A DNA stretch of 64,000 nucleotides from Rivularia sp. PCC 7116 (GTDB lineage: Bacteria > Cyanobacteriota > Cyanobacteriia > Cyanobacteriales > Nostocaceae). The stretch is from positions 6,262,001 through 6,326,000 of the forward strand of contig NC_019678.1 of the NCBI RefSeq assembly GCF_000316665.1. Direction: 5' to 3'. This document shows, in pieces, positions 44,042 to 63,951 of this stretch (position 1 is the stretch's first letter; every line of letters starts with the position of its first letter). The notes under the pieces were generated by a model. It ran no database searches and had not been told where the DNA came from. It saw only the letters and a list, made by a program, of their open reading frames with translations. The translations under genes and the position numbers were made by a program.

Positions 44042-44985
44042 GATAGTGTTTTCCTCAAGGAAAGTAGCCTGTGTTTGTTGATTTTCAGAATTGACCGAGC
44101 AAAATTACTTGCATCGGAGGAGATTCGCGACGAGTTAACGCGATTAAAGATATCTAAAATATTAGCTTCTGTGATATTGTCAAGTCGAGCCAACCAAATA
44201 CAAGCTGCTTTTGGGTAACAATTAGCAACTTTCAAGAACACATCAAACGTTTTAAGAGTCTTTTTATCATCCACACTGCCATAAAACGCCGAAAAACATT
44301 TGTTTGCATAAGCCTCAACTGAGCGTTTTTGTCTTTGTTCGTCAGAAAGGTCGCGTCCCAAACTTGAAGCATGGTCGTAAGTAGGTGCTAGGTGTGCCGT
44401 TTCTTGTGAGGTCGATGCTGCTTTGATTCTGACAATACCCCAGTTTTCGTGGTGGCGATCGCCATTGCCAATCCATGCATCTAGCAGCAGATAGCCAACA
44501 AAAACATCTACTGCTGTTTGAATACCAGAGGGTGGTATCCAATCAATGGGTAAATTTACAGATTGACGGTTGATCGTACTTAGCACTACATCTATTGTAT
44601 GTTGCGAAACGCCGTAGGTGCTGAAAGCTGGGTAATTTGGCACGATTGAAGAAAGAAGTTCATTACCATGAACAAGCGTTCCGCTTTTTGGTAAAAAGTT
44701 GGGTGAGACTACACCGCGATTGCCTTCCCAAGTCGAAGCCAGTTTGTAAACAGCATGGGGAAGTCCTAATAATTCGCATAATTCTGCTGCTACTTTTTCT
44801 GCCCAATCTTCTCCCAAATTAGCTCGGCTTTGTTTATAAAGACAAGAACCAAGTTCTTTGTGATAAAACCAAAATTTATACTTGCTTCCCAAAGTCTCGC
44901 TGAAGGATGCTTCATAAGCTTTTTGAGTAACAAGTAGGACTGGAAATTCATTGGTCATAAATCCAATATGCCGCTTCGTAACCAA
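44038..44985 (-). CDS. HipA-like Ser/Thr kinase
   Basis: 315 aa. The catalytic loop GNGDRHHENWG (about residues 167-177) and a metal-binding 'APTYDHASSLG' (about 200) match HipA_C/phosphatidylinositol-kinase-like folds. The ATP-lysine region is probably 'KYKFWFYH'. It lacks the HipA N-terminal subdomain, which seems to be in the downstream HIRAN gene. No HipB-type HTH antitoxin is adjacent. Possible toxin-like kinase. Confidence 0.7.
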   Translation of the reverse strand: MVTKRHIGFMTNEFPVLLVTQKAYEASFSETLGSKYKFWFYHKELGSCLYKQSRANLGEDWAEKVAAELCELLGLPHAVYKLASTWEGNRGVVSPNFLPKSGTLVHGNELLSSIVPNYPAFSTYGVSQHTIDVVLSTINRQSVNLPIDWIPPSGIQTAVDVFVGYLLLDAWIGNGDRHHENWGIVRIKAASTSQETAHLAPTYDHASSLGRDLSDEQRQKRSVEAYANKCFSAFYGSVDDKKTLKTFDVFLKVANCYPKAACIWLARLDNITEANILDIFNRVNSSRISSDASNFARSILKINKHRLLSLRKTLS

Positions 44986-45051
44986 ATAAAACAGGTAGTG
45001 TTAGGCCTTAGTCTATGATATTATGAACGATTGACTGCACCTTCAAAAATT

Positions 45052-45278
45052 TTAGCCCATCAATAGTTTTGAGAAAGCTCTAGCTTTTATCATTCTTACA
45101 ATAGACTCCAAATACTGATAACCTTGCCATATTTTCTCATCTTCAGGTGTTAAGCCAACAGTCCTATTTTTTCTAGCAAATTGCTAATCTGAGTTTGTAG
45201 AGTTTCAGATGGATGTAAAGCAATAATAGCTTCGGGAGTGGGGAGACTCGCTAAAAATTCTATCACTTCAGTTGCACT
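45052..45278 (-). pseudogene. Antitoxin-like gene remnant
   Basis: The frame reads 'SATEVIEFLASLPTPEAII' then 'TLQTQISNLLEK', shifts by one base in an A-run, and continues 'NRTVGLTPEDEKIWQGYQY' to a stop at 45052. The start codon is missing. I recognise the pattern as a small cyanobacterial protein often next to toxins, but have no firm family name. The remaining gap 44986-45460 holds no other gene. Confidence 0.5.
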
Positions 45279-45410
45279 TTAAAAATATAATAATGCTAGT
45301 TTCAAAGCGACCAATATCAATCAGTAATATCGTTTAGTCCAAATTTAGTCCAAACACCGAAGTATGAATCTTACAAGCCTTTTGCAGCAAGGGTTTGAGG
45401 GAGCGGGCAA

Positions 45411-45457
45411 TCGGTCTGCAAAACCTCCATCCGCCGGTTCAAATCCGGCTGTCGCCT
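45411..45457 (+). pseudogene. tRNA-Cys 3' half
   Basis: GGTCTGCAAAACC forms the anticodon arm (GCA, 45418-45420), GCCGG-TTCAAAT-CCGGC the T arm, and TGTCGCCT the 3' acceptor strand. The partner GGCGACA and a normal D arm are absent upstream, so this cannot be a working tRNA. It ends 3 bp before the CAST end. The discontinuity lies upstream of about 45411. Confidence 0.7.
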
Positions 45458-45460
45458 TTG

Positions 45461-45546
45461 TGTACATTCACAAATTATTTGTCACTGTTAACAGATTAGT
45501 GTCACTTTTAACGAATTGATGTCACTTTTAACAAATTGTGTGTCAC
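45461..45546 (+). repeat. CAST end, array side, with TnsB-type repeats
   Basis: Starts with TGTACATTCACAAATTATTT, then three spaced TGTCAC-type sites (45480, 45500, 45520 region) with the shared TTAACRAATT core, and a fourth at 45541. These are the binding sites expected for TnsB. Confidence 0.8.
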
Positions 45547-45578
45547 GTTCAATTATGGACACATCTTTAATAATAATG

Positions 45579-45595
45579 GCAGACCTCTGCCTTAC
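45579..45595 (-). ncRNA. Delocalised homing spacer against tRNA-Cys
   Basis: Directly after the fifth repeat, the minus strand reads GTAAGGCAGAGGTCTGC and then diverges. As I remember bacterial tRNA-Cys genes, this is the D-loop to anticodon stretch, preceded by AGTG, which fits the NGTN PAM of Cas12k. Short delocalised guides to tRNA genes are the known homing mode of V-K CASTs. Confidence 0.75.
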
Positions 45596-45964
45596 CTTTC
45601 AACCCACCTTAAATTTAGTAAAGCTTGAGTATTTACTTCAAGCTTGATTTTTAATAATTTATCAAGGCTCTTATCTCAAGCCTACTTGGAGTCGTGGTGT
45701 TTGTAGATTTTTTCAACCTACTTAAAACTTGAAGAAGTGTTAAAACGATGAATTCTCCAACCAAAGCCACTGGTAATAGGTGCTTTCAACCCGCTCAAAA
45801 TTTGAAGAAGTGTTGAAACAGCGAGCTACAGTTCGTAAATGGGGAAGCGACCTCTTTTCAACCCGCCTAAAGCTTGAATGAGCCTTGAAACGGAGTGACT
45901 CCGCCTTAAACAATTACTTAAGGATTCTTTTCAACCCGCCCAAAGCTTAAAGAGGCGTTGAAAC
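45596..45964 (-). CRISPR. Type V-K CRISPR array with diverged repeats
   Basis: Transcribed right to left. Four 37-nt repeats (45964-45928, 45891-45855, 45819-45783, 45746-45710) begin GTTTCAA or GTTTTAA and end GGGTTGAAA(G/A) or AGGTTGAAAA. Spacers of 36, 35 and 36 nt lie between them. The repeats differ internally from each other, and the last is the most decayed. A fifth, delocalised repeat (45632-45596) follows after 77 nt and keeps mainly its 3' half (AAGGTGGGTTGAAAG). Spacer targets unknown. Repeat form agrees with V-K systems. Confidence 0.88.
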
Positions 45965-46160
45965 TTAGCGCCTCCAATCCCTTATTTAATAAAGCTTCCA
46001 AAAGCATTTTTGGCAGTTCTACCAACATTTCCTGTCACTTAACACTTTAAAAAAGTTAATTAATTGACACTAAGGAAGGCTAGACTGTTAATATACAAGG
46101 ATTTGAACGTTTTGGCATGAACCCCAGAGAAATAACTCCGGCTTCGATTTGCCAAAAATA
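45965..46160 (-). other. Array leader between tracrRNA and first repeat
   Basis: About 200 bp with no gene. It includes an imperfect inverted repeat around 46034-46070 (GTCACTTAACAC / GTTAATTAATTGAC), similar to TnsB-type sites, and probably the array promoter. Confidence 0.4.
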
Positions 46161-46397
46161 AAAATTAAGGTGGGTTCCTCCTTGCTCGGAGGTGATTAGG
46201 TAGCAACCACTGCGGAAAACCCGCACCTCTATTACTGGGGGCGCACCTTATGTCCTATCTACAAGAGATAGCAGCTTCAAGGTGGGCAGCTACCAGGGTC
46301 AGAAAGCAAGACTGTGTGACCACAGTCAAACTAACCCATATTTATCATTGTTCAGAGACGTTTAAAACGCATGAACAACGGCGCTGTTATATTCTAT
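46161..46397 (-). ncRNA. Type V-K tracrRNA
   Basis: The minus strand carries blocks I recognise from the ShCAST tracrRNA in the same order: 'ACAGCGCCG', 'GGGTTAGTTTGACTGTG', 'CTTGCTTTCTGACCCTGGTA', 'GCTGC', 'GGTGCGCCCCCAGTAATA', then the CTCC...GGAG hairpin and the anti-repeat AACCCACCTTAATTT at 46175-46161. The anti-repeat pairs fully with AAGGTGGGTT of the delocalised repeat but meets one C-A mismatch with the intact array repeats. It lies between cas12k and the array, as expected. Ends are approximate. Confidence 0.88.
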
Positions 46398-46424
46398 TTT
46401 CAAGGTTCGGGAGAATATTTTGTA

Positions 46425-47392
46425 TTAAGATTTGTTACGATATTTGTAAGCAGCCGAAGCTATTTCTTTGGCTTTATCTTGCGGGCTTCCCTTGACAGAT
46501 TGTTTTGTTTCCTCTATGACAATTCCAGCTTGAGCAGCTTGGCTATTAATATTCTCAATTAATCTGCCATAACTCCACTGATTAACGCTGCGGCGATATT
46601 GTTTAGCGTATTTTTTCTGAGCTTCGATAGATTCTGGGCATTTTTCTTCAGCTTTTGCTTGAATTTCGCTATTTATTTGTTCGCGCATACCTTCTAATTT
46701 GGGAAGCACGATACTACCAGCAGAATATTTTTGTGCGATCGCCACTATTTCCTTTGCCAATAATCTATCGATATACTCTCCTAGTTCAGAATCTCCATAT
46801 TGATTTGGTGCAGCTTGGCTTTGAGCTACTTTACGTTTGTGAGATAAAGCTTTCTTTTGCTGTCGCTGTCGATTCAGTAATCTGTAATTATTGCCCAGCA
46901 GTTGTTTGATGCTGCGGTAGGTGAAAACTTTACCCGAAATCATATCTACAACTGCGACAGTTGCAGGCTTTTCTAAACCAAGACTGACACCTAATAGAAT
47001 ATGAGATTGTCCTTTGTATAAAGGTTTGCTTGGGCGTGGATAAGGATTGTTGATTCTAGCCAGCGTGTTTTTCCTTCAAGTTGCAACTGCAAGCGCTTTT
47101 GAAGCTTTAACCAAGATTTGTAAGTGTAGCTCACCGTATTGATTGCGCTTGTGTAAAACCTTACAGATTGTCCAACAAAACGCGAGTCAGTTTTTAAAGG
47201 TTCGCACAGTTCCTTAATAGTTCCTGCTGGGACTTTGCCTTTGTGTTTCCAGGCTTCAAAGTCAGGGTGTTGACATACTAAAATCAACAACTCGTTTATG
47301 AGTGGTGTATTTAGCTCTGCCATTAGTTTCCATAATTCTTTACGGGTTGACACTCTGGCATTTAAACGGCATTGAATGGTAATTTGGCTCAT
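46425..47392 (-). pseudogene. cas12k: Cas12k, large internal out-of-frame deletion
   Basis: The 5' part starts MSQITIQ (47392) and matches the first 113 or so residues of Cas12k up to 'GKTRWLE'. It then runs out of frame to a stop at 46991. In the -1 frame, homology restarts at once as 'RINNPYPRPSKPLYKGQSHI', followed by 'VSLGLEKPATVAVVD', and runs to 'ASAAYKYRNKS' (46425), the C-terminal RuvC-like region. Compared with about 640 aa in the family, some 315 central residues are gone. The join is near 47050-47060. No canonical slippery heptamer is visible there. Probably non-functional. Confidence 0.88.
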
Positions 47393-47420
47393 AGGACAGC
47401 CAATAGAAGGGCTATGCTCC

Positions 47421-47440
47421 ATAATAACGTAGTTGTGTAA
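47421..47440. promoter_or_regulatory. Candidate CvkR operator at cas12k
   Basis: ATAATAACGTAGTTGTGTAA, 29 nt before the cas12k start, agrees at 17 of 20 positions with a site 15 nt before tnsB (62071-62090), same orientation relative to both genes. It lies in the cvkR/cas12k divergent region. CvkR is known to control cas12k and tnsB in related systems. Confidence 0.6.
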
Positions 47441-47485
47441 TAAAGCCCTAATTCTTCAATTAAATGTTTGTGTACAATCTGAAAT

Positions 47486-47932
47486 ATGGAAGACTCATTT
47501 TTCACCAGTAAAAAAGCCGCTGAAATTACAGGTTCTACTCTTCGTCAATTGCAGTATTGGCGAGAGAAGGAGGTAGTTGTACCTACTATTAACAGTTCGG
47601 GTACGGGACGTAGCGTTTACTACTCTGTTCAAGATTTACTGAAGTTGGCGGTAATACAATACTGTTTGAAAGCGGGTTTAAATTTTGATTTGGCAGCTAC
47701 AACTATTAAACAAGCTGAAAGCGATAAATTACTTACACCCACCAAATATGAGTTTGATATTAAACAAAATTTGAATATGCGTTATATGTTTAGTTTGTCT
47801 GAGGAGACAGGTAAACTAGAACTTGGGGAGTACGATGTGAAGAAGGCTCAATCATCAGTAGAAACTGGTAAGCCTGTAATTCCCGTGTGTTTGGATGATA
47901 TTTATCAACAATTAGCTGAAAAAATAGATTAA
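47486..47932 (+). CDS. cvkR: MerR-type CAST regulator CvkR
   Basis: 148 aa. A MerR-like winged HTH at the N terminus ('FTSKKAAEITGSTLRQLQYWREKEVV', residues 5-30, then 'GRSVYYSVQDLLKLAV'), followed by a dimerisation helix and a variable C-terminal part without metal-binding Cys. The position divergent from cas12k is that of CvkR repressors of V-K CASTs. It probably represses cas12k and tnsB through the shared 20-bp site. Confidence 0.85.
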   Translation: MEDSFFTSKKAAEITGSTLRQLQYWREKEVVVPTINSSGTGRSVYYSVQDLLKLAVIQYCLKAGLNFDLAATTIKQAESDKLLTPTKYEFDIKQNLNMRYMFSLSEETGKLELGEYDVKKAQSSVETGKPVIPVCLDDIYQQLAEKID

Positions 47933-47981
47933 TATTATACTTTTCCTGGAAGAATAGTAAAGACGTATTGGAGCGAATCAA

Positions 47982-49646
47982 GTGCCGCGTGAAAACAGGA
48001 AAGGTAGAAAGAGCAGTAAGAAGTCTACAGTTGACAATAATGGTTCTGGGCAATTGTCTCTACAGCTAGAAAATAAAGCTGAGGAGCGTTTGGACATTCC
48101 CGCAATGGAAACTTGGCTGTGGGAGGCTGCTTGTAAGATACGCGGTTGTACAGATGCGCCAAAATTCAAGGATTTTATTCTACCTCTCATTTTCTACAAA
48201 CGTCTTTCTGATGTTTTTGATGATGAGTTTGTTGCTTGTGAGGAGAAATTTGGCGGTACGGATTTAGCTCGTGCTTTTATTGAAGCAGATCATCGAGATG
48301 CGTTAAAAAATAATCGTCAGCCCATTGTTCGTTACTATATTCCTCAAGATTACTGTTGGGACAAGATTCGCTTTCATCCTAAAGATGGGTTGGGTGAGTT
48401 TGTGACAACGGCTATGCGGGAAGTGGAAAAGTTGAATCCTGGCTTATCGGAAACACTAAAGCTAAAGGATTATAACGAAAAGCAGCAAAATGAGCGTATT
48501 TTGGATGATGACCGTTTATCAAGTTTAATTGAAGTAATTAGTCGGCATCGGTTGGGATTAAAAAATACTAATGCGGATGTTTTAGGGGAAGCCTACGAGT
48601 ATCTTTTACGTAAATTTGCGGAAGGACAGGGACAAAGTGCGGGAGAATTTTTGACACCTTCTGAGGTGGGTTGGTTGATTGGTGAAATTATTGCTCCAGA
48701 ACCTTATACGAAGATTTATGACCCTACTTGTGGTTCTGCAAGGTTGTTAATTAAGCCACGTTTGGTATTTAATCGCCAACATCCAGGAGAGGAAAGTAAA
48801 GCACCTCGGCTGTACGGACAGGAATTGAACCACACAACTTTTTCTATTGCCAAAATGAATATGTTTTTGCAGGATTTTACCGATTCGCAGATTGAAATTG
48901 GCGATACCTTCCGACAACCTAAATTTACAGTTGATAAAAAACTGATGCGCTTTGATTATGTAGTTGCTAACCCGATGTGGAATGATAACAACTACGATGC
49001 AGATGCTTATGAAGCTGATTCTTTTGAACGCTTCAAGGATGGAATTGCTCATAAGAATACAGCAGATTGGGGTTGGGTACAAATTATTTGGGCATCTTTG
49101 AAAGATAACGGACGGGCTGCGGTGGTTTTGGATACTGGAGCGGTGTCTCGCGGTTCGGGAAGTAAGAATAAGGATAAGGAAAGAGATATTCGTAAAGAGT
49201 TTGTGGAAAAGGACAGAGTTGAAGGTGTGATATTGCTTCCTGAAAACTTGTTTTATAACACCACAGCACCGGGAGTAATTATATTATTAAATCGGCAGAA
49301 GCCATTAGAAAGAAAAGGTGAGTTTTTGCTGATTAATGCTGCTGATTATTTTATCAAAGGCGACCCCAAGAATATTTTGACAAAGGAAGGAATTAAGAAG
49401 GTTGTTGAAGTTTATCAGAAGTGGGAGACGCGGGAGAAGTTTAGTAAGATTGTTAAGTTAGAAGAGTTAAATGTTGCGGATTATAATTTGAGTCCGTCAC
49501 AGTTTGTAGATATTAATGATAAATTTGTTCATCGTTCGATTGGGGATATTTTGGCAGATTTAGCGGTAGCGAAGCAAGAGCGGGAATGGGCTGATAAGGA
49601 TTTAAATGAGGTGTTGGCGAAGTTGAATTTAGATATGAGGGGGTAA
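47982..49646 (+). CDS. hsdM: Type I restriction-modification methyltransferase HsdM
   Basis: 554 aa, GTG start, 49 nt after cvkR. N-terminal HsdM_N helical domain ('METWLWEAACKIRGCTDAPKFKDFILPLIFYKRLSDVF'), then an N6-adenine methyltransferase domain with SAM motif 'YDPTCGSARLL' (about 245) and 'VVANPMWN' in place of the common NPPF/Y catalytic motif. It forms the M2S complex with HsdS. First gene of the cargo RM operon. Confidence 0.92.
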   Translation: MPRENRKGRKSSKKSTVDNNGSGQLSLQLENKAEERLDIPAMETWLWEAACKIRGCTDAPKFKDFILPLIFYKRLSDVFDDEFVACEEKFGGTDLARAFIEADHRDALKNNRQPIVRYYIPQDYCWDKIRFHPKDGLGEFVTTAMREVEKLNPGLSETLKLKDYNEKQQNERILDDDRLSSLIEVISRHRLGLKNTNADVLGEAYEYLLRKFAEGQGQSAGEFLTPSEVGWLIGEIIAPEPYTKIYDPTCGSARLLIKPRLVFNRQHPGEESKAPRLYGQELNHTTFSIAKMNMFLQDFTDSQIEIGDTFRQPKFTVDKKLMRFDYVVANPMWNDNNYDADAYEADSFERFKDGIAHKNTADWGWVQIIWASLKDNGRAAVVLDTGAVSRGSGSKNKDKERDIRKEFVEKDRVEGVILLPENLFYNTTAPGVIILLNRQKPLERKGEFLLINAADYFIKGDPKNILTKEGIKKVVEVYQKWETREKFSKIVKLEELNVADYNLSPSQFVDINDKFVHRSIGDILADLAVAKQEREWADKDLNEVLAKLNLDMRG

Positions 49647-49648
49647 GG

Positions 49649-50938
49649 ATGAATGAGATAGAATTACCTTCTTATTGGAAAATTATAAATTTAGAAAAAA
49701 TCTGCAAAAAAAAGCCTCAAAATGGAGCTTTTATCAAAAAACCTGAATGGGATGAAGGCACAATTTTTGTTAATGTTAAAGATACATATAGAGATGTAGT
49801 TGTTAACCTAACAAAAGTAAAACGTTTAAAAGCTTCACTTGAAGATGTCAAAAAATACGGTCTTAAAGTAGGTGATTTGTTATTTGTCCGCTCTTCGCTA
49901 AAGCGTGAAGGTATTGGTCAATGTTGCCTTATAGAGACATTAATTGAACCTGCAATATTTGATTGCCATTTAATTAGAATATCTACAATCAAAGAAATTG
50001 CATATCCTCTTTACATAGCATATTTTTTTCTGTCTGAGCCAGCTAGAAATGACTTAATTGCAAGGTCTAAAACTACTACAATGACTACTATTAACCAACA
50101 AGGTTTGATAGAGTCTACCATTCCTCTCCCCCCACTCCCCGAACAAAAATCAATAGCCCAAACCCTGCGAACCATCCAGAAAGCCAAACAAACCCGTCAG
50201 CGAGAGTTAGAACTCGAACGGGAACGCAAAGCTGCACTGATGCAGTATCTTTTTACTCATGGGACTCGTAATGAAGCGCTTCAGCAGACGGAAATTGGTG
50301 AGATTCCTGAGAGTTGGGATGTTGTGAAGTTGGAAAGTTTGCTACGAGAACCTTTAAAAAACGGTCATTCAGCACCAGCAAGTAATTCTAAAGAAGGTAT
50401 TAGGACTCTTATTTTAACAGCGGTAACTAAAAATAATTTTTCTATTAAAAATACAAAATTAACTCAAGCTAATGCTGATAAAGTTAAAAATCTGTGGCTA
50501 GAACCTGGCGATATTTTTATTGAAAGAGCAAATACTTATGAAATGGTAGGGTTAGCTGCTTTGTATGAGGGTGAAACAAACTTTGCTATTTATCCTGATT
50601 TAATGGTTCGCGTTCGAGTCAAACAAGAAACAATTTTTCCTAAGTATTTGGTTGAGTTTTTTCTGACTCCAATGTGCAGAGCTTATTTTAAGAAAAATGC
50701 TTCTGGAACAGCAGCTAGTATGCCAAAAATAGATCAAGGTGTAATACGAAGAGTTAATATTCTACTACCTTCTTATGAAGAGCAGAAGGAAATTGTTGAG
50801 ATATCAAGAAGTTGCGATCGCAAAATTTCCTCCTTAGAAAAAGAAATCGCGATTCTCGACGAACTTTTCCACGCCATGTTAGAACAACTGATGACAGGTA
50901 AAATATCTACCAAACACTTAAGCGAGATACACTTATGA
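49649..50938 (+). CDS. hsdS: Type I specificity subunit HsdS
   Basis: 429 aa. Two target-recognition domains, each ending in the conserved helix ('[15 protein letters not shown]' near 165; '[16 protein letters not shown]' near 375), separated by a central coiled coil ('[19 protein letters not shown]'). Starts 2 nt after hsdM and overlaps hsdR by 4 nt. The sequence specificity cannot be read from the protein alone. Confidence 0.92.
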
Positions 50939-53900
50939 GTGAAGCCTCCGCCGTTCAAAGACCAATGCTAAAATATGCCAATCAAATTGGCTGGGACTAT
51001 TTATCTACAAAGGAAGCATTACAACGGCGAGAAGGAAAGGGAGAGGATAAACTCAAAGAGCGCTACTTAACCGATATTCTCCGCACTCAACTAATTAAAC
51101 TCAACCCCGGTGTTGTCACTTCTAACAACGTTGATGAAATTCTTCGTCGTCTGCGTAACCTTGATAGTACCATTGCAGGCAACCGCGAAGCTTTAAACTG
51201 GTTGCAGGGTAAAGAATCTATCTTTGTAGAAACAGAAAACCGCGATAGAAACGTTACTCTTATAGACTTTAACAACCCCGAAAATAACATCTTCCAAGTT
51301 ACTGATGAATGGACGCAAAAAGGTGTAATAGTTAAGAACCGGGCTGATGTAATTTTTCTGATCAACGGTATTCCCGTCGCTATAGCAGAAGCCAAGGGAG
51401 AAAGGAAAACTGATGGTTTAGCATTGGGAATCAACCAAATTCGTCGCTACCACAACGAAACTCCGGAGATACTTACTTTTCCTCAACTCTTTGAAGTCAC
51501 CGAACTGTGGAATTTTTGGTATGGCTTAACCTGGAATACTAACCGTAAGAATTTATTTGAGTGGAAATTGACCTCTCCCCTAACCCCTCCCCTACAAGGG
51601 AAGGGGAATAAAGTTATTCAAGAAGGGGATTACGAAGAGAAAATCAAAACCTTCTTTGATAAACAACGGTTTTTGAAAGTTCTCAGATATTATATTGTTT
51701 TCCTCGAACGAGATGAGGGTTTAACTAAAGTTGTTCTCCGTCAACATCAAACCCGTGCTGTTGAGAAAGTCATAGAACGGATTCAAGACAATACCAAGAA
51801 AAAGGGACTTGTTTGGCATACCCAAGGTAGCGGTAAAACCCTGACGATGATTACAGTTGCTGCTCTACTCCGCAATATTAGCGGTGATAACACTGTAATT
51901 ATGATAGTTGACCGCAACGAGCTAGAAAATCAACTTGATAAAAATCTTATAGCTTACGGTATTAAAAGCTATGAGTTAGCAGAAAATAAAGTCGAATTAC
52001 AGCAACTTATCCGTGATGATTATCGTGGCTTAATTGTGGCGATGATTCACAAGTTTGACAAAATGGATGTTGTAAACCAGCGTTCTACAATTTCCGTTTT
52101 AGTAGATGAAGCGCACCGTACAACTGGGGGTAATTTCGGAATTTACTTAATGGCTGCGCTTCCCAATGCAACTTTTATCGGTTTCACGGGTACACCAGTT
52201 AGTAAAGTAGCGAAAGGGAAAAAAAGCACATTCGACACATTCGGCGAACCTAGTGACGACAAAAAGACTTTAGACCTTTATTCTACCGCCGACTCGGTAA
52301 GAGATGGTACGACTTTACAACTCAATTATGCTCTTGCTGCATCGGAGTTTCTGGTTCCCAAAGAAATTTTAGAACAAGAATTTTTACAATTACAAAACAC
52401 CGAAGACGTTAGCGATATTGAGGAACTTGACGGTATACTTCAACGGGCTGTTAATTTAAGAAACTTCCTCAAAAGCGATGACAGAGTTGATAAAGTTGCT
52501 CAATTCGTCGCCAAACATTTCCGCGAAACTGTTGAACCAATGGGTTTCAAAGCCTTTTTGGTAGGTGTAGACCGCGAAGCCTGTAAACTTTATAAACAAG
52601 CCCTTGACAAATATCTCCCTGCTGAATATTCAAAAGTTGTTTATTCCCGTACCACTGAGGAAGGATTGCGAGAATATAATCTTACAGAAACAAAAGAGAA
52701 AGAAGTCCGCAAAGCTTTTATTAAAAAATCCGTTGTTTCCGCTCAAATTATTTTATCTAAAAAAGCTGTAGATTTTATTGAATCTCGTCCTCAAGATTTT
52801 ACTTACGACTCCAACAGCAATTTAACTATTACAGGTAACTGTTCCCGTGAAGATGTTCAAACCCTAGAAAACTATTGCGATAACGAACCAGATGCAGTTA
52901 GTAAAATCCGTCAACTTTACGAAGACTACAGCAAAGGATTACCCAAAATCCTCATCGTCACCGAGAAACTGCTAACGGGTTTTGATGCACCGATACTTTA
53001 CTGTATGTATCTCGACAAACCAATGCGCGACCATGTTTTATTACAAGGAATAGCGCGTGTTAACCGTCCCTACGCAGATGCATCCGGCTTAGTTAAACCC
53101 TACGGTTTTGTTCTCGATTTTATCGGCATTTTTGGGGAAAATCTAGAGAAAGCTTTATCATTTGAATCTGGAGAAATTAACCACGTCATCCAGAATCTTG
53201 ATGTTGTGAAACAAGAACTAAATAGTTTAATGGAAGACACTGCACCTGTGTATTTACCATTAGCTAGAGGATGGGACGATAAAGCCAAAGAAAAAGCTGC
53301 GGTACATTTTGCTGATAAAGAAATACGAGAAGAATTCTTTAGATTTGCCCGAAAATTGCAGACTATTTACGAAATTCTCTCACCCGACCCAGATTTAGGT
53401 GGGGAATTCATGAAAAAATACAAAGCCATTGTTAGACTTTACGCCACAATACGCGCAGCTTATAATACCAATCCTTACATAGATTTAGAACTCGTCGCCA
53501 AAACCAAAGAACTAGTACGTCGTAACGTTAAAATTGGCGAGTTAGAAATGCCGGGAACGATTCACCAACTTAACGCCGAACAATTAGAAAAATTCCGTCA
53601 AACTGACACAACCGATAACGTTAAAATTCTAAACTTAAGTAAGGCAATTTCCAAAGACGTAATTGAGGGAAGTGCGCGATCGCCATTTTTGATTTCCATT
53701 GGTGAACGAGCCGAGAAAGTCCGTCAAGCCTTTGAAAACCGCCAAATAGAAGCTTCTGAAGCTTTAACTCAACTAAATGAAATAGCCGACGAACGTGTTG
53801 AAGCAGAGCAAGAGCGTCAGCAGCTAGATGTTGATGAAAATACCTTCGCCATCTACACTGTCATTAAGCAAGCAGTAGATAACCAAAATGTCGAGCAAGC

Positions 53901-54072
53901 TAAAACCATTAACGCAGTTTACAGCAACTTCCCCGATTACTGGTGGGATGCTCGTCAAGAAATCGACTTAAGAACAGAACTCTACGCTACTCTTTACCCC
54001 TTAACAAACGAAGTTGAGAAAACAATTGAAGTTAGTAATAACTTACTAAAACTAGAACGGGTTGAATCATGA
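50935..54072 (+). CDS. hsdR: Type I restriction endonuclease HsdR
   Basis: 1045 aa. PD-(D/E)XK nuclease near residues 135-155 ('RADVIFLI...IAEAKG'), SF2 helicase with Walker A TQGSGKT, DEAH box VDEAHRT and 'GFTGTP', plus motif VI 'QGIARVNR', then a C-terminal helical region that docks on HsdM. Residues about 212-224 ('[13 protein letters not shown]') come from an in-frame dispersed repeat between nuclease and helicase parts. Otherwise intact. Confidence 0.92.
51568..51612. repeat. Dispersed repeat inside hsdR
   Basis: ACCTCTCCCCTAACCCCTCC followed by CCTACAAGGGAAGGGG: a short pyrimidine/purine palindromic repeat usually found between genes in these genomes, here read through in frame as '[13 protein letters not shown]'. 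Confidence 0.6.
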
Positions 54073-58995: not shown

Positions 58996-59514
58996 CTATG
59001 AATTAAATACTGTAATTGACTTTTGGTATTTACTCATCTCCCCAAAAGTCGTAAAACACCTATGACACCAACCATCAACCCACAACGCTGGAACCTTAAA
59101 TCTCGCTCCACATTCAGGACACTCAGACAGCAAGGTTGATTTGTGCTGATTACATCCCTGCGTCACTTTAAACTGCCATTTAATCTTGTGACGAGGAGAC
59201 TCAGCATAACAAGCCCCACATAAACGAATTGGCTCAAGCTTCATCCCCACCCCAGCAGGTGGTAACATCATCACTAACCTATCAACATCAACCCCTACGA
59301 CACTAGCTAATTTCCCCAACTGCTGATGAGAAGGAGATGGAATAAACCGAAATTTCTCCCAACGTGCGATCGCACCCCCAAGTCCGGTAGCTTTACCCAG
59401 TCCAGAAGGTGTTAAATCATTAGCCCGTCGAAATCTTCCTAAAAAATGGCTTAAGCTTTCTCCCTCTAATGGCTTTACTCGAAACAACCAAGGCTTAATA
59501 TTTTCTGCTTGCAT
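58996..59514 (-). CDS. tniQ: TniQ target-adaptor protein
   Basis: 172 aa, matching the short TniQ of V-K systems (about 167 aa). N-terminal 'PLEGESLSHFLGRFRRANDLTPSGLGKATGL' and an HTH are followed by zinc-finger pairs (CGAC, CPEC, CHRC). It bridges TnsC filaments to the Cas12k R-loop. Its start overlaps the tnsC stop by 1 nt. No visible damage. Confidence 0.92.
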   Translation of the reverse strand: MQAENIKPWLFRVKPLEGESLSHFLGRFRRANDLTPSGLGKATGLGGAIARWEKFRFIPSPSHQQLGKLASVVGVDVDRLVMMLPPAGVGMKLEPIRLCGACYAESPRHKIKWQFKVTQGCNQHKSTLLSECPECGARFKVPALWVDGWCHRCFTTFGEMSKYQKSITVFNS

Positions 59515-60350
59515 TACCGATATTCCTCAGTTACTTCCTTCAAAGTTTCCAAATCAATTTTTTGCAATCCCTTTTTTAAAGCGCGAATTGCTGACTCTCG
59601 CAGAATCATGTCCATCAAACCAATATAACCACCCGTTGCTTCCCCTAAAGTCTTCAGAATCTTCTTACTCGAAAGATTAGAAGCTACTGGTAACTTTAAA
59701 ATTTGCTTCTCCCAAATTTCTACTGTCCGCTTAAAATCTTCCCCAGAGAATTTACCAAAGCGATGGCAAGACCGAAAGCGATTATAAACTTGCTCATCCC
59801 GCTTAATCACCGTGTCTAATCGGTCAGTCCCCACCAATATGACTGGAATTTCCAATTTATCAAAGATATCACGCACCTCTGCAAAGGTTTTCGGCTTAAG
59901 ACGGTCAGCTTCATCAATAATTACCATCTCCACTGCACAACCTTTTAACACTCGAAAAGCCCTATCTCTAATCTCTGATACTGTTCCTTTAGTTACCTGA
60001 TACTTCAAATGCTCAAGAATCATACTGAATAAATCTCTTGCACCACACTCTTGAGGAATTTGAATATATACAACAGGTACAGTTGGAGGCTTCCCGTGTT
60101 TCTGTGTGGGTTTATGCCTTAATCTGTAAGCATTGCAACCCATAGTTTTACCCGTTCTAGATTCACCTACAACCCTTCCAGATTGACGTGATTGCCGTTT
60201 CCCCTCTAACCAATCATGGAGCTTTTTTACTTGCTCAAGGGGAACAAAATTTTTACCTCGCAAACGCTGAATTTCTGCTTGCAAGTTTTCATTATTGGTA
60301 GGAATAGCACCTAACTGTTGAGCAACTGCCTGAGCTTGTATATCGGTCAT
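59514..60350 (-). CDS. tnsC: TnsC AAA+ ATPase
   Basis: 278 aa. Walker A GESRTGKT (residues 62-69), Walker B MVIIDEADR (142-150), sensor 'VILVGTDRL'. It forms ATP-dependent helical filaments on DNA that recruit TnsB. Separated from tnsB by 2 nt. Intact. Confidence 0.94.
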   Translation of the reverse strand: MTDIQAQAVAQQLGAIPTNNENLQAEIQRLRGKNFVPLEQVKKLHDWLEGKRQSRQSGRVVGESRTGKTMGCNAYRLRHKPTQKHGKPPTVPVVYIQIPQECGARDLFSMILEHLKYQVTKGTVSEIRDRAFRVLKGCAVEMVIIDEADRLKPKTFAEVRDIFDKLEIPVILVGTDRLDTVIKRDEQVYNRFRSCHRFGKFSGEDFKRTVEIWEKQILKLPVASNLSSKKILKTLGEATGGYIGLMDMILRESAIRALKKGLQKIDLETLKEVTEEYR

Positions 60351-60352
60351 CT

Positions 60353-62056
60353 TTAAAACCCGTAATCTTCTTGCATTTGTTCGTAATCAAATACTTCGAG
60401 CATCTCTACCTCTGGCTGACTTTCATTTTTTGTCACTTCTACTTCTTCGGACACCTCAACAGGTAAAGGTTGTTGGGCTTGCTTAAGCTCAGCCTGTTCT
60501 GCTTTCTGACGTTGTTTTTTGGTTTTCTTTGTAGTAGTAAAAGTTTCGCGATCGCGCACCTCTGCGAAAATTGAGCGATTGCTTACCTCCTTACCTGCTT
60601 CTCTAACCTTACGACTACTGGCTTTAGCCTCATCTAGAGATACTTGCTCTGTCTCCAAATCTTGAGCAAATGCCCTAGCTAAAAACTCTTCTTTACTTCC
60701 TTTTCGGCGATAAACTAAAACAGTTGTAATATCTCTGGGGTCATATCTTAGGACAACGCTTTCCCCTGCATATCCCGCTAAAAGTTCCCCTCGATACATA
60801 AGGTTTTCAAATTGTAGATATCCTCCACGTTGGATTTGTCGTCGCATTTTCTTCATTAAGCAAATATCTAAATCCCTATCGGAAAGCAAATTTGGCATTC
60901 CGATTAATCCAGACTCCCAACGCTGAAATCTTGTCTGGTCGCCCATCCGTGCATCAAGCCGTTGGTTATAGTTATCAACTATGTAGCGTACTAAAAGCTG
61001 CTCTAACTGTCGTAGTGTTAGACAAGCATCTTTCTCAGCTTCTTTTGGGCGTTCTTGTACATTTGAACCCGTGTATCCCTGTAAAGTAGAGAATAATTCA
61101 GTGTTAAAAGTTTTAAAAGGACGCTCGACACTACCACCTTCAGACGGTCGGTCGCGAAGATGACATACAAACCCCAACTGGACTCCTATCTCTTGCAAAT
61201 GGTTAGAACGAAAATCTCTTCCTCCATCTGTATAAAAGTGTTGTGGTAAGCCGTAAGTACCCCATTTTTCATGCAGTCCATATTCAGAACCATATTGCTT
61301 TGCTAAAATCGCATGGCGTAATGCCAAAGCTACAACTTGAGAACTTGGTGCGTCGTAACCCAAGTTAATACCCATAATGCAGCGTGAATAACTGTCAATG
61401 ACTGTGGTTAACCAAGGACGACCAAGAACTTTGCCATGCCGATCTACTAATAAAATATCAGCAAGGGTATGGTCGCATTGCCATACTTGGTTACTGTATT
61501 CCACTTGTAAATCATTTCCATCACGAGTTTTAACAGACAAGCGTGAACCACGCCAACCTGGAGAACGAACACTTTTAACTTGTTCTTGTTTATCTATTAA
61601 AGGTTGCAAAATCCGATAGACCGTCATATGAGAAGGAGGCTTAAGATTTAGTTCATTAGCTCTTGCTTTGACTCGAATAAATACCTGCTGACGAGTCATT
61701 CTTCTACTTCCCTTATTCCCCTCCTTATAAGTTTTCAATACAAACTCTTGCCAGTTTTGATCAACTCGATACTTTCCTTTATCGGCTCTTCGATTTTGTA
61801 CCAGCCCAGCTAGACCTTCTCGTTCCCATTTATCGACCAGTCGCCTAACTGTACGTACCGACTTACCAAGTTTTTTTGCTGCTTGTTGAAGCCGTTGAGT
61901 ATATGTGGCACCGTCATCATTTTGCAAGAGACTTTGAATCACTTCTATTTTTAGCCGAGCTTCATCAGAAAGCTCAGAAACAATAACATTCTCTTCTTTT
62001 TGAGAAGCCGCGCAAGATAAACCTTTAGAGGTTGCAGAAAATTCAGAATCATGCAT
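60353..62056 (-). CDS. tnsB: TnsB DDE transposase
   Basis: 567 aa. N-terminal HTH domains that bind the end repeats ('SVRTVRRLVDKWEREGLAGL', 'THMTVYRIL'-type), then a retroviral-integrase fold with the DDE triad at Asp195 (WQCDHT), Asp277 (FYTDGG) and Glu311 (SVERPF), then a beta barrel and a C-terminal tail that contacts TnsC ('EMLEVFDYEQMQEDYGF'). It joins only 3' ends, giving replicative cointegrates, since V-K systems lack TnsA. Candidate CvkR site 15 nt upstream. Confidence 0.95.
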   Translation of the reverse strand: MHDSEFSATSKGLSCAASQKEENVIVSELSDEARLKIEVIQSLLQNDDGATYTQRLQQAAKKLGKSVRTVRRLVDKWEREGLAGLVQNRRADKGKYRVDQNWQEFVLKTYKEGNKGSRRMTRQQVFIRVKARANELNLKPPSHMTVYRILQPLIDKQEQVKSVRSPGWRGSRLSVKTRDGNDLQVEYSNQVWQCDHTLADILLVDRHGKVLGRPWLTTVIDSYSRCIMGINLGYDAPSSQVVALALRHAILAKQYGSEYGLHEKWGTYGLPQHFYTDGGRDFRSNHLQEIGVQLGFVCHLRDRPSEGGSVERPFKTFNTELFSTLQGYTGSNVQERPKEAEKDACLTLRQLEQLLVRYIVDNYNQRLDARMGDQTRFQRWESGLIGMPNLLSDRDLDICLMKKMRRQIQRGGYLQFENLMYRGELLAGYAGESVVLRYDPRDITTVLVYRRKGSKEEFLARAFAQDLETEQVSLDEAKASSRKVREAGKEVSNRSIFAEVRDRETFTTTKKTKKQRQKAEQAELKQAQQPLPVEVSEEVEVTKNESQPEVEMLEVFDYEQMQEDYGF

Positions 62057-62103: not shown

Positions 62104-62338
62104 ACAGTTAATTCGTTAATTTATGCAAAATAATTATTTTTTGCGGTTTCTAGGAATTGACAATTAAAGTGTGAAATATCTACTTTTTGACACTTAATTT
62201 GTGAAATGATGGTTAGAAAAGTGTGATTGTTGTAAATAGTAAAAACCCTGTCATAATCCTTGCAATGACAGGGTTTGATGGATTTAAAGTTTCGTGACGA
62301 ATAATTTGTTAAGTTGACAGATAATTAGTTAATGTACA
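62104..62338 (-). repeat. CAST end, tnsB side, with TnsB-type repeats
   Basis: Terminal TGTACATTAACTAATTATCT with TnsB-like sites near 62102, 62157, 62187, 62293 and 62314, each around TTGACANWTAATT or GTGACGAATAATT. The outermost 46 bp are nearly the same as the orphan end at 30775. Confidence 0.85.
62243..62276 (-). terminator. Strong hairpin insulating tnsB
   Basis: Perfect 12-bp stem AAACCCTGTCAT / ATGACAGGGTTT. On the minus strand it is followed by TTTTTA, so transcripts coming in from the flanking TPR gene would stop before tnsB. Confidence 0.65.
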
Positions 62339-63951
62339 AATTCCTCTGCTTCGGAAAAACGTTCTAAACTACCATAGACTGTAGCAAGATTATTTAAAGT
62401 TGTGGCTACCTGGGGATGGTTATTACCAAATTGACTTCTAATAATTAACAAGACTTCCGTAAATAGCTTTTCTGCTTCTGCATATTTAAATTGAGCATCA
62501 TAAAGTACTGCCAAACTATTCAAAATTCCCGCAACATCGGGATGCATTTCTCCCAGTAAGCGTTTTGCTAACTGATAATTTTCTTTGTATATTGCTTCTG
62601 CTTGAGAATATCTTCCTTGTAAGCGGTAAATTTCTGCGATTCTATTTAAACTTTTGACAATATCGTGATGCTCTTCTCCGAATATATTTTTTCTAATGGC
62701 TAAAACTGTTAAATATTTTTGTTCGGCTTGAGAATAATTTCCTTGTTTTTGATAAACTAGCGCTAAATGGTTTAAGTTATCGGCGTAATTGGGATGATTT
62801 TTACCGTATGCTTTTTCAATTGAATCAAGTGTTTTTAAACAAATAGATTCTGCTGTTTGATAACGTCCTTGATAAGTATAGAGTACCGCAAAATTATGTA
62901 ATAGTTGGACAATATCGGGATGTTCTGGATTTAAAAATAATTTTCTAATGTCGTAAGCTTGTTGATAAACTTCTTCGGCTTTTAAATAAAGTCCTCGAAG
63001 TAGATAAACATTACCTAAATTATTTAGACTTTGAGCAACTTCTAAATGCTCTTTTCCAAATATTGCTTTTCGGATTTCTAAAGCTTGTAAATGAATTCTT
63101 TCCGCATCTGCATAACGACCTAGATTTTCAGAAATACCGCCAAGATTATTTAAAATAATAGCAATAGAGGGATGTTTGTCATTCCCCAAACATTTTTTAC
63201 ATAATTCACAAGCTTGGGTATAATAATCTTCAGCTTCCGCAAAACGTCCTTGAGAATTATATAAAGCGGCTAAATTATTTAAACTCGCTGCCACATTCCA
63301 ATGTTCTTCACCAAGCAATTTTTTACGCATTGCTAATGCTTCTAAATGCATTGTTTCCGCATCTTGATAGCGTGCTTGGTTTTCATAGATTGCAGCTAAA
63401 TTATCCAGACTCTGAGCAACATCGGAATGTTTTTCTCCAAATAGAGATTGTCGCATATTTAAAGATTTGATATGCATTTTCTCTGATTCTGCATAACGTC
63501 CTTGCTCTCGATATACTTCGGCAATATTATTTAAAATAGTCGCAATTTCTTCATGTTCTTCACCAAGGTGAATTTTCCACAGATGCAAAGCTTGAAAAAA
63601 ATAGTTTTCAGCTTCAGGATAATTACCTTGAATTACATAAAATGCAGCTAGATTATTTAAACTTTGAGCAACATCGGGATGATTTTCTCCCAACAATTGC
63701 TTTCTCATTTCTGTGCTTTCAATCAGCAATGGTTGGGCATCTGGATAGTTACCTTGAATTCGGTATAATTCTGCGAGGTTATTGAGGCTGTCTGCTAAAA
63801 CTTTATGCTCGCCGATTTTTTCTTTAGTTAGTTTAATTGCTTTTTTGGTGATAGATATTGCTTGTTTTATATCACCTTCTCCGGCTAATCTTACAACTTC
63901 TCGGTTGAGTTGGTTTATTTCTTCGAGGTTTTGAGAGGTGTTGTTGTTCAT
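62329..63951 (-). pseudogene. TPR protein, 3' truncated by CAST
   Basis: 540 codons from the ATG at 63951. About a dozen TPR_12/kinesin-light-chain-like repeats of 42 residues ('GNYPEAE...LGEEHPDVA.SLNNLA'). The last native residues are 'FSEAEEF'; the final VH and stop come from the CAST end (GTACATTAA). Family members are often followed by a CHAT or other effector domain; the remainder of this one is not found next to the other CAST end. Whether the truncated repeat protein still works is unknown. Confidence 0.85.

Follow-up and report, generated by a model that had tools for sequence, protein, structure and literature searches.

The window analysed here is a stretch of 64,000 nt from Rivularia sp. 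PCC 7116 (C1:6262001-6326000, in a genome of 8.73 Mb and three contigs). To judge from its sequence, the element that lies between TGTACA termini at 45461 and 62338 is a decayed type V-K CAST and no active member of this family. Its proteins were identified by sequence: tnsB (60351..62056, minus strand; 567 aa, without inner stop; TnsB_0_V-K, 2.3e-233), tnsC (59514..60350, minus; TnsC_0_V-K, 5.7e-103) and tniQ (58996..59514, minus; TniQ_0_V-K, 5.9e-71) all match PADLOC V-K profiles, stand in the V-K gene order and face away from one end. On the tnsB side, the transposon stops at the right-end TGTACA (62333..62338, minus). The CRISPR-side end (45461..45539, minus; terminal TGTACA at 45461), which is the left end in the naming used in the available text of PMC9938897, carries three 20-nt direct repeats that resemble TnsB-binding sites and would presumably be bound by this protein.

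Between these ends, cas12k is broken. A C-terminal remnant (46425..47048, minus) aligns to ShCas12k residues 431-634 and an N-terminal one (46991..47422, minus) to residues 1-114 in another frame; residues about 115-430, that is, about half of the gene, are missing, and the frame has changed. No other copy of cas12k was found when the genome was searched. Both aligned remnants are free of inner stops, suggesting that the deletion is recent; the longer C-terminal match from the genome search counts one TGA. Divergent from cas12k runs a small MerR-like gene (47486..47932, plus) with a weak NCBIfam match, whose position is that of cvkR in the passages covered of PMC9938897 and which, by this position, may be cvkR. 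The cargo ORFs (window 47982-54072), as read from their sequences, resemble a type I restriction-modification system.

A predicted tracrRNA region (46155..46390, minus), whose start we placed by analogy with AnCAST at 35 nt after cas12k (available text of PMC9938897), holds the anti-repeat AACCCACCTTAA (46176-46165, minus) behind a CTCC...GGAG hairpin, between cas12k and the array. The decayed CRISPR array itself (45710..45964, minus) has four degenerate 37-nt repeats (45928-45964, 45855-45891, 45783-45819 and 45710-45746) and three spacers between them; Rfam, run on 44900-48000, returned sub-threshold matches only, of which three were to a CRISPR repeat family and the fourth to bxd_5. Closer to the left end follow a truncated homing repeat, here called R* (45596..45612, minus), and a 17-nt homing (anchor) guide, GTAAGGCAGAGGTCTGC (45579..45595, minus).

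The homing guide and its tRNA-Cys target

Where would such a guide have sent the transposon? The original prediction held that it matches tRNA-Cys and had set a comparison with the host gene as the test. The genome indeed has two mismatch-free copies of the 17-mer, one being the guide and the other lying at C1:6109363-6109379, against a chance expectation of about 0.001 occurrences, and the second site lies, as an exact match over 17/17 nt, within an intact tRNA-Cys (GCA) called by ARAGORN (C1:6109346-6109417). The PAM had been anticipated as well: the protospacer is preceded by GTG, which fits GTN.

Today this intact gene is 198 kb away from guide and transposon, and the protospacer does not lie beside the left end. 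Directly outside the left end stands a 3′ half of tRNA-Cys (45413..45460, plus; attR-like, found by alignment), which we take as the leftover of an integration into tRNA-Cys; no tRNA was called in the window. This half aligns with the intact locus over 57 nt at 93% and is identical to the tRNA-Cys 3′ half of another genome of the genus, G391, up to the transposon end. Counting the two tRNA parts as one gene, PAM and left end are 58 nt apart. The available text of PMC9938897 gives 46-82 nt as the V-K range, and the present 198 kb falls outside it; the joined distance falls within it, so that homing to tRNA-Cys first and a later cut-off from the target is the most likely order. Among the other strict loci of our survey (see below), the distance was 42-65 nt in 19 of the 20 that were measured (20 of 37), and 218 nt in one.

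The intervening 198-kb segment encodes a TraG-type coupling protein, along with a VirB4-like ATPase that scores far under its family cut-off and a TrbI match below threshold, and an ORF beside the intact tRNA-Cys (L003:4668-5804), without a match in Pfam or NCBIfam, looks by eye like a tyrosine-type integrase. Two genomes of the same genus, G391 and G388, likewise carry half copies of the tRNA with integrase-like sequence behind them, so that tRNA-Cys looks like a hot spot of integration in this genus (L003:4347-5804; L127; L132). The conjugation genes and the integrase-like ORF probably belong to an element that entered tRNA-Cys and left the target 198 kb off. The T-arms would be expected to differ if this newcomer supplied a new 3′ half, and they do: that of the half-tRNA is the T-arm of the tRNA-Cys in G391 and G392, and that of the intact gene is the one in G306. 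This argument is weak, since genomes of other genera match our intact tRNA at 100%. The segment also contains a TnsB-like ORF of ~910 aa (C1:6190454-6191248; L009) with 33% identity to the V-K TnsB over the match, which, with further ORFs downstream, is probably part of another Tn7-like element.

Alternatively, an untargeted transposition might have hit the half-tRNA directly, after the 198-kb segment had arrived. This would accommodate flanks that share no 5-bp target-site duplication (CTTTG on the left, AATTC on the right) and a right flank (window 62333-62345; L126:4329) that lies inside a TPR-type gene; G391 has this gene without an interruption here, and the two are 93% identical up to the junction. 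It sits badly with a left end 58 bp out, where a guide-directed insertion at an intact tRNA-Cys would land, and, as a weak point, with T-arms as expected of a newcomer replacing the 3′ half. We regard such an untargeted event as unlikely and prefer homing followed by detachment.

The state of the right end could be explained by a past co-integrate, by recombination between copies or by an adjacent deletion. When the genome was searched for the rest of the TPR-type gene, only weak TPR matches came up, and a comparison with contig C2 of G392 and 60 kb of its C1 beside tRNA-Cys recovered only pieces of at most 3.4 kb. Within the Rivularia genome, there is no second V-K TnsB (the other match being the 33%-identical relative), and neither a second cas12k nor a second copy of the left end was found, which together exclude a complete unresolved co-integrate; a relic of a co-integrate at this element is still conceivable.

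Two of the array spacers find matches in the 198-kb segment: spacers 2 and 3 match two sites there (34/36 and 32/34; C1:6216740-6216775 and C1:6227293-6227334; L006, L007, L123). The target of spacer 3 has a GTT PAM and lies in a gene that encodes an M23 peptidase domain; that of spacer 2 is preceded by ATT, not GTN, and lies in an ORF without a Pfam match. The stretch with both spacers also matched four predicted-conjugative plasmids (from Trichormus, Nostoc and Aulosira) over 27-32 nt, in spacer 2 only and weakly (E-values 0.02 to 0.3). These matches agree with array guides aimed at conjugative elements. They are striking because the segment matched by the array spacers now sits in the transposon's own homing tRNA.

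Repeat pairing with the tracrRNA across V-K loci

In our element, nucleotides 45601-45612 of R* pair with the anti-repeat at 12/12 positions (-18.2 kcal/mol), whereas the four array repeats reach -10.9, -10.9, -8.4 and -4.7 kcal/mol with the same anti-repeat. All four are mismatched, three of them by an A.C and the fourth at position 5. It was thus right that the homing repeat alone is fully complementary to the tracrRNA, with a C opposite the A or other changes in the array, and equal pairing energies for all repeats can be discarded. A further claim, that the homing guide is under stronger selection than the array, is one that a comparison at one locus alone could not show.

A survey of V-K loci was based on two overlapping searches for Cas12k: one within the order (388 genomes, 108 matched, our own included) and one within the class (388 genomes, 65 matched at a stricter limit). 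Downstream of Cas12k matches, most of which hold the C-terminal part, 140 loci were taken; 100 belong to the order and 40 to other orders, and our own brings the total to 141. Homing guides were accepted with a match of at least 16/17 to a nearby site plus a GT PAM, and the anti-repeat was placed by the tracrRNA hairpin, not by score. A guide was detected in 84 of the 141 loci, an anti-repeat in 104, an array in 92 and all three in 54; the 87 loci in which one of the three parts was not detected were left out. In a first set of 44 loci, six were dropped whose guides matched at only 15/17, leaving 38. Within this first strict set, 33 targets of the 37 other loci were in tRNA genes or at most 30 nt from one, of 11 kinds, and tRNA-Cys was the target in none of the 37. 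The homing-guide architecture as such is already known and common.

Across the 54 complete loci, R* forms an 8-bp mismatch-free helix with its own tracrRNA in 40 cases, against 11 for the majority array repeat; helices made up of eight Watson-Crick pairs number 31 and two, respectively. Position 6 of this helix is paired in 50/54 loci with R* and in 17/54 with the array. In those 50 loci the anti-repeat carries A (26), U (21) or G (3) at this position and R* its complement; of the array mismatches at position 6, 31/37 are U.U or A.C. The array is the better partner at position 9 (paired in 49 versus 37 of 54) and is paired slightly more often than R* at positions 4 and 8. The duplex as a whole is stronger with R* than with the majority array repeat in 42/54 loci and weaker in 12/54 (sign test, p 5e-5, a value that overstates independence among related loci).

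When partners were permuted among 49 distinct triples, the mean duplex energy of R* weakened from -13.16 to -9.01 (z -10.9, p 1e-4) and that of the array only from -11.66 to -11.31 (z -1.3, p 0.11), with independence again overstated by the relatedness of the loci. One phylogeny, however, underlies both R* and the array, and relatedness alone is thus not a ready explanation of the contrast. A narrower anti-repeat rule (49 loci) gave the same picture, with position 6 paired in 45 loci for R* versus 17 for the array and z-values of -10.0 versus -1.1. In the first set alone (38 loci; z -8.1 for R*, -0.8 for the array), R* outdid the best array repeat in 30 loci and fell short of it in eight; with the dropped 15/17 loci included (44), the counts were 32 stronger, 11 weaker and one equal. 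From the other orders, 11 of 40 loci were usable with the pipeline unchanged (z -5.7 for R*, -1.45 for the array): position 6 was paired in 11/11 versus 4/11, and R* was stronger in 9/11 and weaker in two, which is not significant (p 0.065). On the 38-locus tree, an anti-repeat change came with a pair-keeping change on the same branch 12 times for R* versus twice for the array, small numbers obtained by simple parsimony. Apparent exceptions to the pairing rule are L168 and L174, from one genus, which have tRNA-directed 17-nt guides and a repeat, TTTGAGAATT, that hardly pairs with the anti-repeat; both are among the 12 loci with the weaker R* duplex. As far as sequence covariation can tell, these patterns indicate that, in the sampled V-K elements, it is R* and not the array repeat with which the anti-repeat of the tracrRNA coevolves.

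Might the perfect match in Rivularia nonetheless reflect chance or a recent duplication, and the guide be young? The original prediction was drawn from one locus only, and the loss of cas12k, with aligned remnants free of inner stops, looks recent. Yet other families and orders show the pattern too, and our array is more diverged than any other among the 54 (pairwise mean of 0.207 per site versus a median of 0.011; 27/148 positions differ from the intact array of the tree sister, L176), from which it follows that the element is not young. We consider a young guide very improbable.

R* and the guide themselves show no departure from a perfect match, and the combination of a decayed array with a perfect homing unit fits an array released from constraint at a time when the element still homed and cas12k had yet to be lost. 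The presumed stronger selection on the homing guide is supported in part. In its favour are the most diverged array beside a perfect guide and R* and, across the sampled loci, a tracrRNA for which covariation is detected with the homing repeat but not with the array. For this genome, however, the claim has to be put in the past tense because cas12k lacks its middle and is shifted in frame and the transposon is no longer next to its target; the guide seen here is a well-preserved relic.

Priority, compensation or by-product

The two kinds of repeat also differ in self-folding. The array hairpin has a mean of -14.2, compared with -3.7 in the context of R* and -4.9 in random windows taken from these loci, and it is more stable than the R* context in 51/54 loci. 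It hides the tracrRNA-pairing segment, and the truncated R* is unable to form it. Duplex minus hairpin favours R* in 51/54 loci, a figure that applies to unprocessed RNA only; all these energies are those of naked RNA, and processing or Cas12k binding may shift them.

What could this asymmetry be for? In the account that we favour, the 17-nt guide behind R* would have directed the transposon to tRNA-Cys at its GTG PAM, and the perfect pairing of R* with the anti-repeat would have led to Cas12k loading, as suggested by known V-K systems. Two later events, the entry of the conjugation-gene element into tRNA-Cys and the deletion of about half of cas12k, would then have disabled the system. The R*:tracrRNA match would be no accident of this locus but an instance of the coevolution across the sampled elements, in which homing guides may be privileged tracrRNA partners, with site-specific homing coming before array-guided jumps. 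Taken as a whole, from tRNA-Cys homing to homing priority, we judge this account to be probable. There is, in our estimation, an even chance that R* and the anti-repeat coevolve as a private pair, with the array kept weaker by its position-6 mismatch and its hairpin, together amounting to a priority switch at the RNA level. If true, this switch would send the element home unless array guides are abundant. It would also help explain why natural insertions are almost always at homing sites: the passages covered of PMC11406308 and PMC11656645 attribute nearly all natural V-K insertions to the homing guide and place integrated copies elsewhere than beside array protospacers.

The same data can be read without any priority. 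A truncated R*, having lost the 5′ half of the repeat and its hairpin, may need to pair perfectly over the remaining 12-13 nt for any binding of Cas12k, and its pairing advantage lies only in the segment that R* retains. Such compensation is compatible with the coevolution result and differs from a priority switch in its consequence; it leaves unexplained why the array is mismatched at position 6 in 37/54 loci and shows no significant covariation with the tracrRNA, and we entertain it only tentatively. A somewhat better case, albeit one we still lean against, can be made for a by-product: array repeats may be bound by their hairpin or by borrowed adaptation or processing enzymes, with only R* free to follow the drift of the tracrRNA. 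Array repeats resemble one another at many loci, irrespective of the anti-repeat; in 31/54 loci the base at position 6 is engaged in the hairpin of the repeat itself; and V-K elements, having no adaptation genes of their own, may borrow type I-D ones according to the available text of PMC11406308. A by-product, too, is compatible with coevolution and differs in its cause. R* pairs better all the same, so that a functional effect stays conceivable, and the direction of selection is not readable from the present data.

V-K CASTs serve as insertion tools, and the rule suggests which repeat form loads Cas12k best. Being measurable (the tracrRNA follows the homing repeat, not the array), it also makes the paradox of homing insertions directly testable. 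For such questions the Rivularia locus is an informative fossil, with a decayed array, a perfect homing unit and a conjugation-gene element that would have split the transposon from its target. The delocalised homing crRNA of V-K CASTs is said, by papers that cite them, to have been described by Saito 2021 and Hsieh & Peters 2021; the pairing rule may have been published already. Truncated or delocalised V-K homing guides are described in the available text of PMC11406308, PMC9938897, PMC11656645 and PMC12719977, and neither these portions nor those of PMC9876797 were found to mention that the homing repeat pairs better with the tracrRNA.

How does this compare with other systems? As in type I-F3 CASTs, a separate class of guide, apart from the array guides, serves the chromosomal attachment site. 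The atypical repeats of I-F3 elements reportedly act within a Cascade system without tracrRNA. The V-K distinction would lie in repeat:tracrRNA pairing and the absent repeat hairpin; the I-F3 guide categorisation (Petassi 2020) is taken here as described in the passages covered of PMC11406308. Closest at hand are ShCAST, AcCAST and AnCAST, which, in the available text of PMC9938897 and PMC11406308, combine a truncated repeat of about 12 nt and a 17-nt spacer near the CRISPR-side end with a tRNA target, a GTN PAM, a tracrRNA after cas12k and tnsB-tnsC-tniQ at the other end. The Rivularia element shares with them the truncated repeat and 17-nt guide, the tRNA target, the GTN PAM and the gene layout. 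Unlike these three, it has a cas12k deleted mid-gene and frameshifted, a target 198 kb off that is a tRNA-Cys, and no target-site duplication left.
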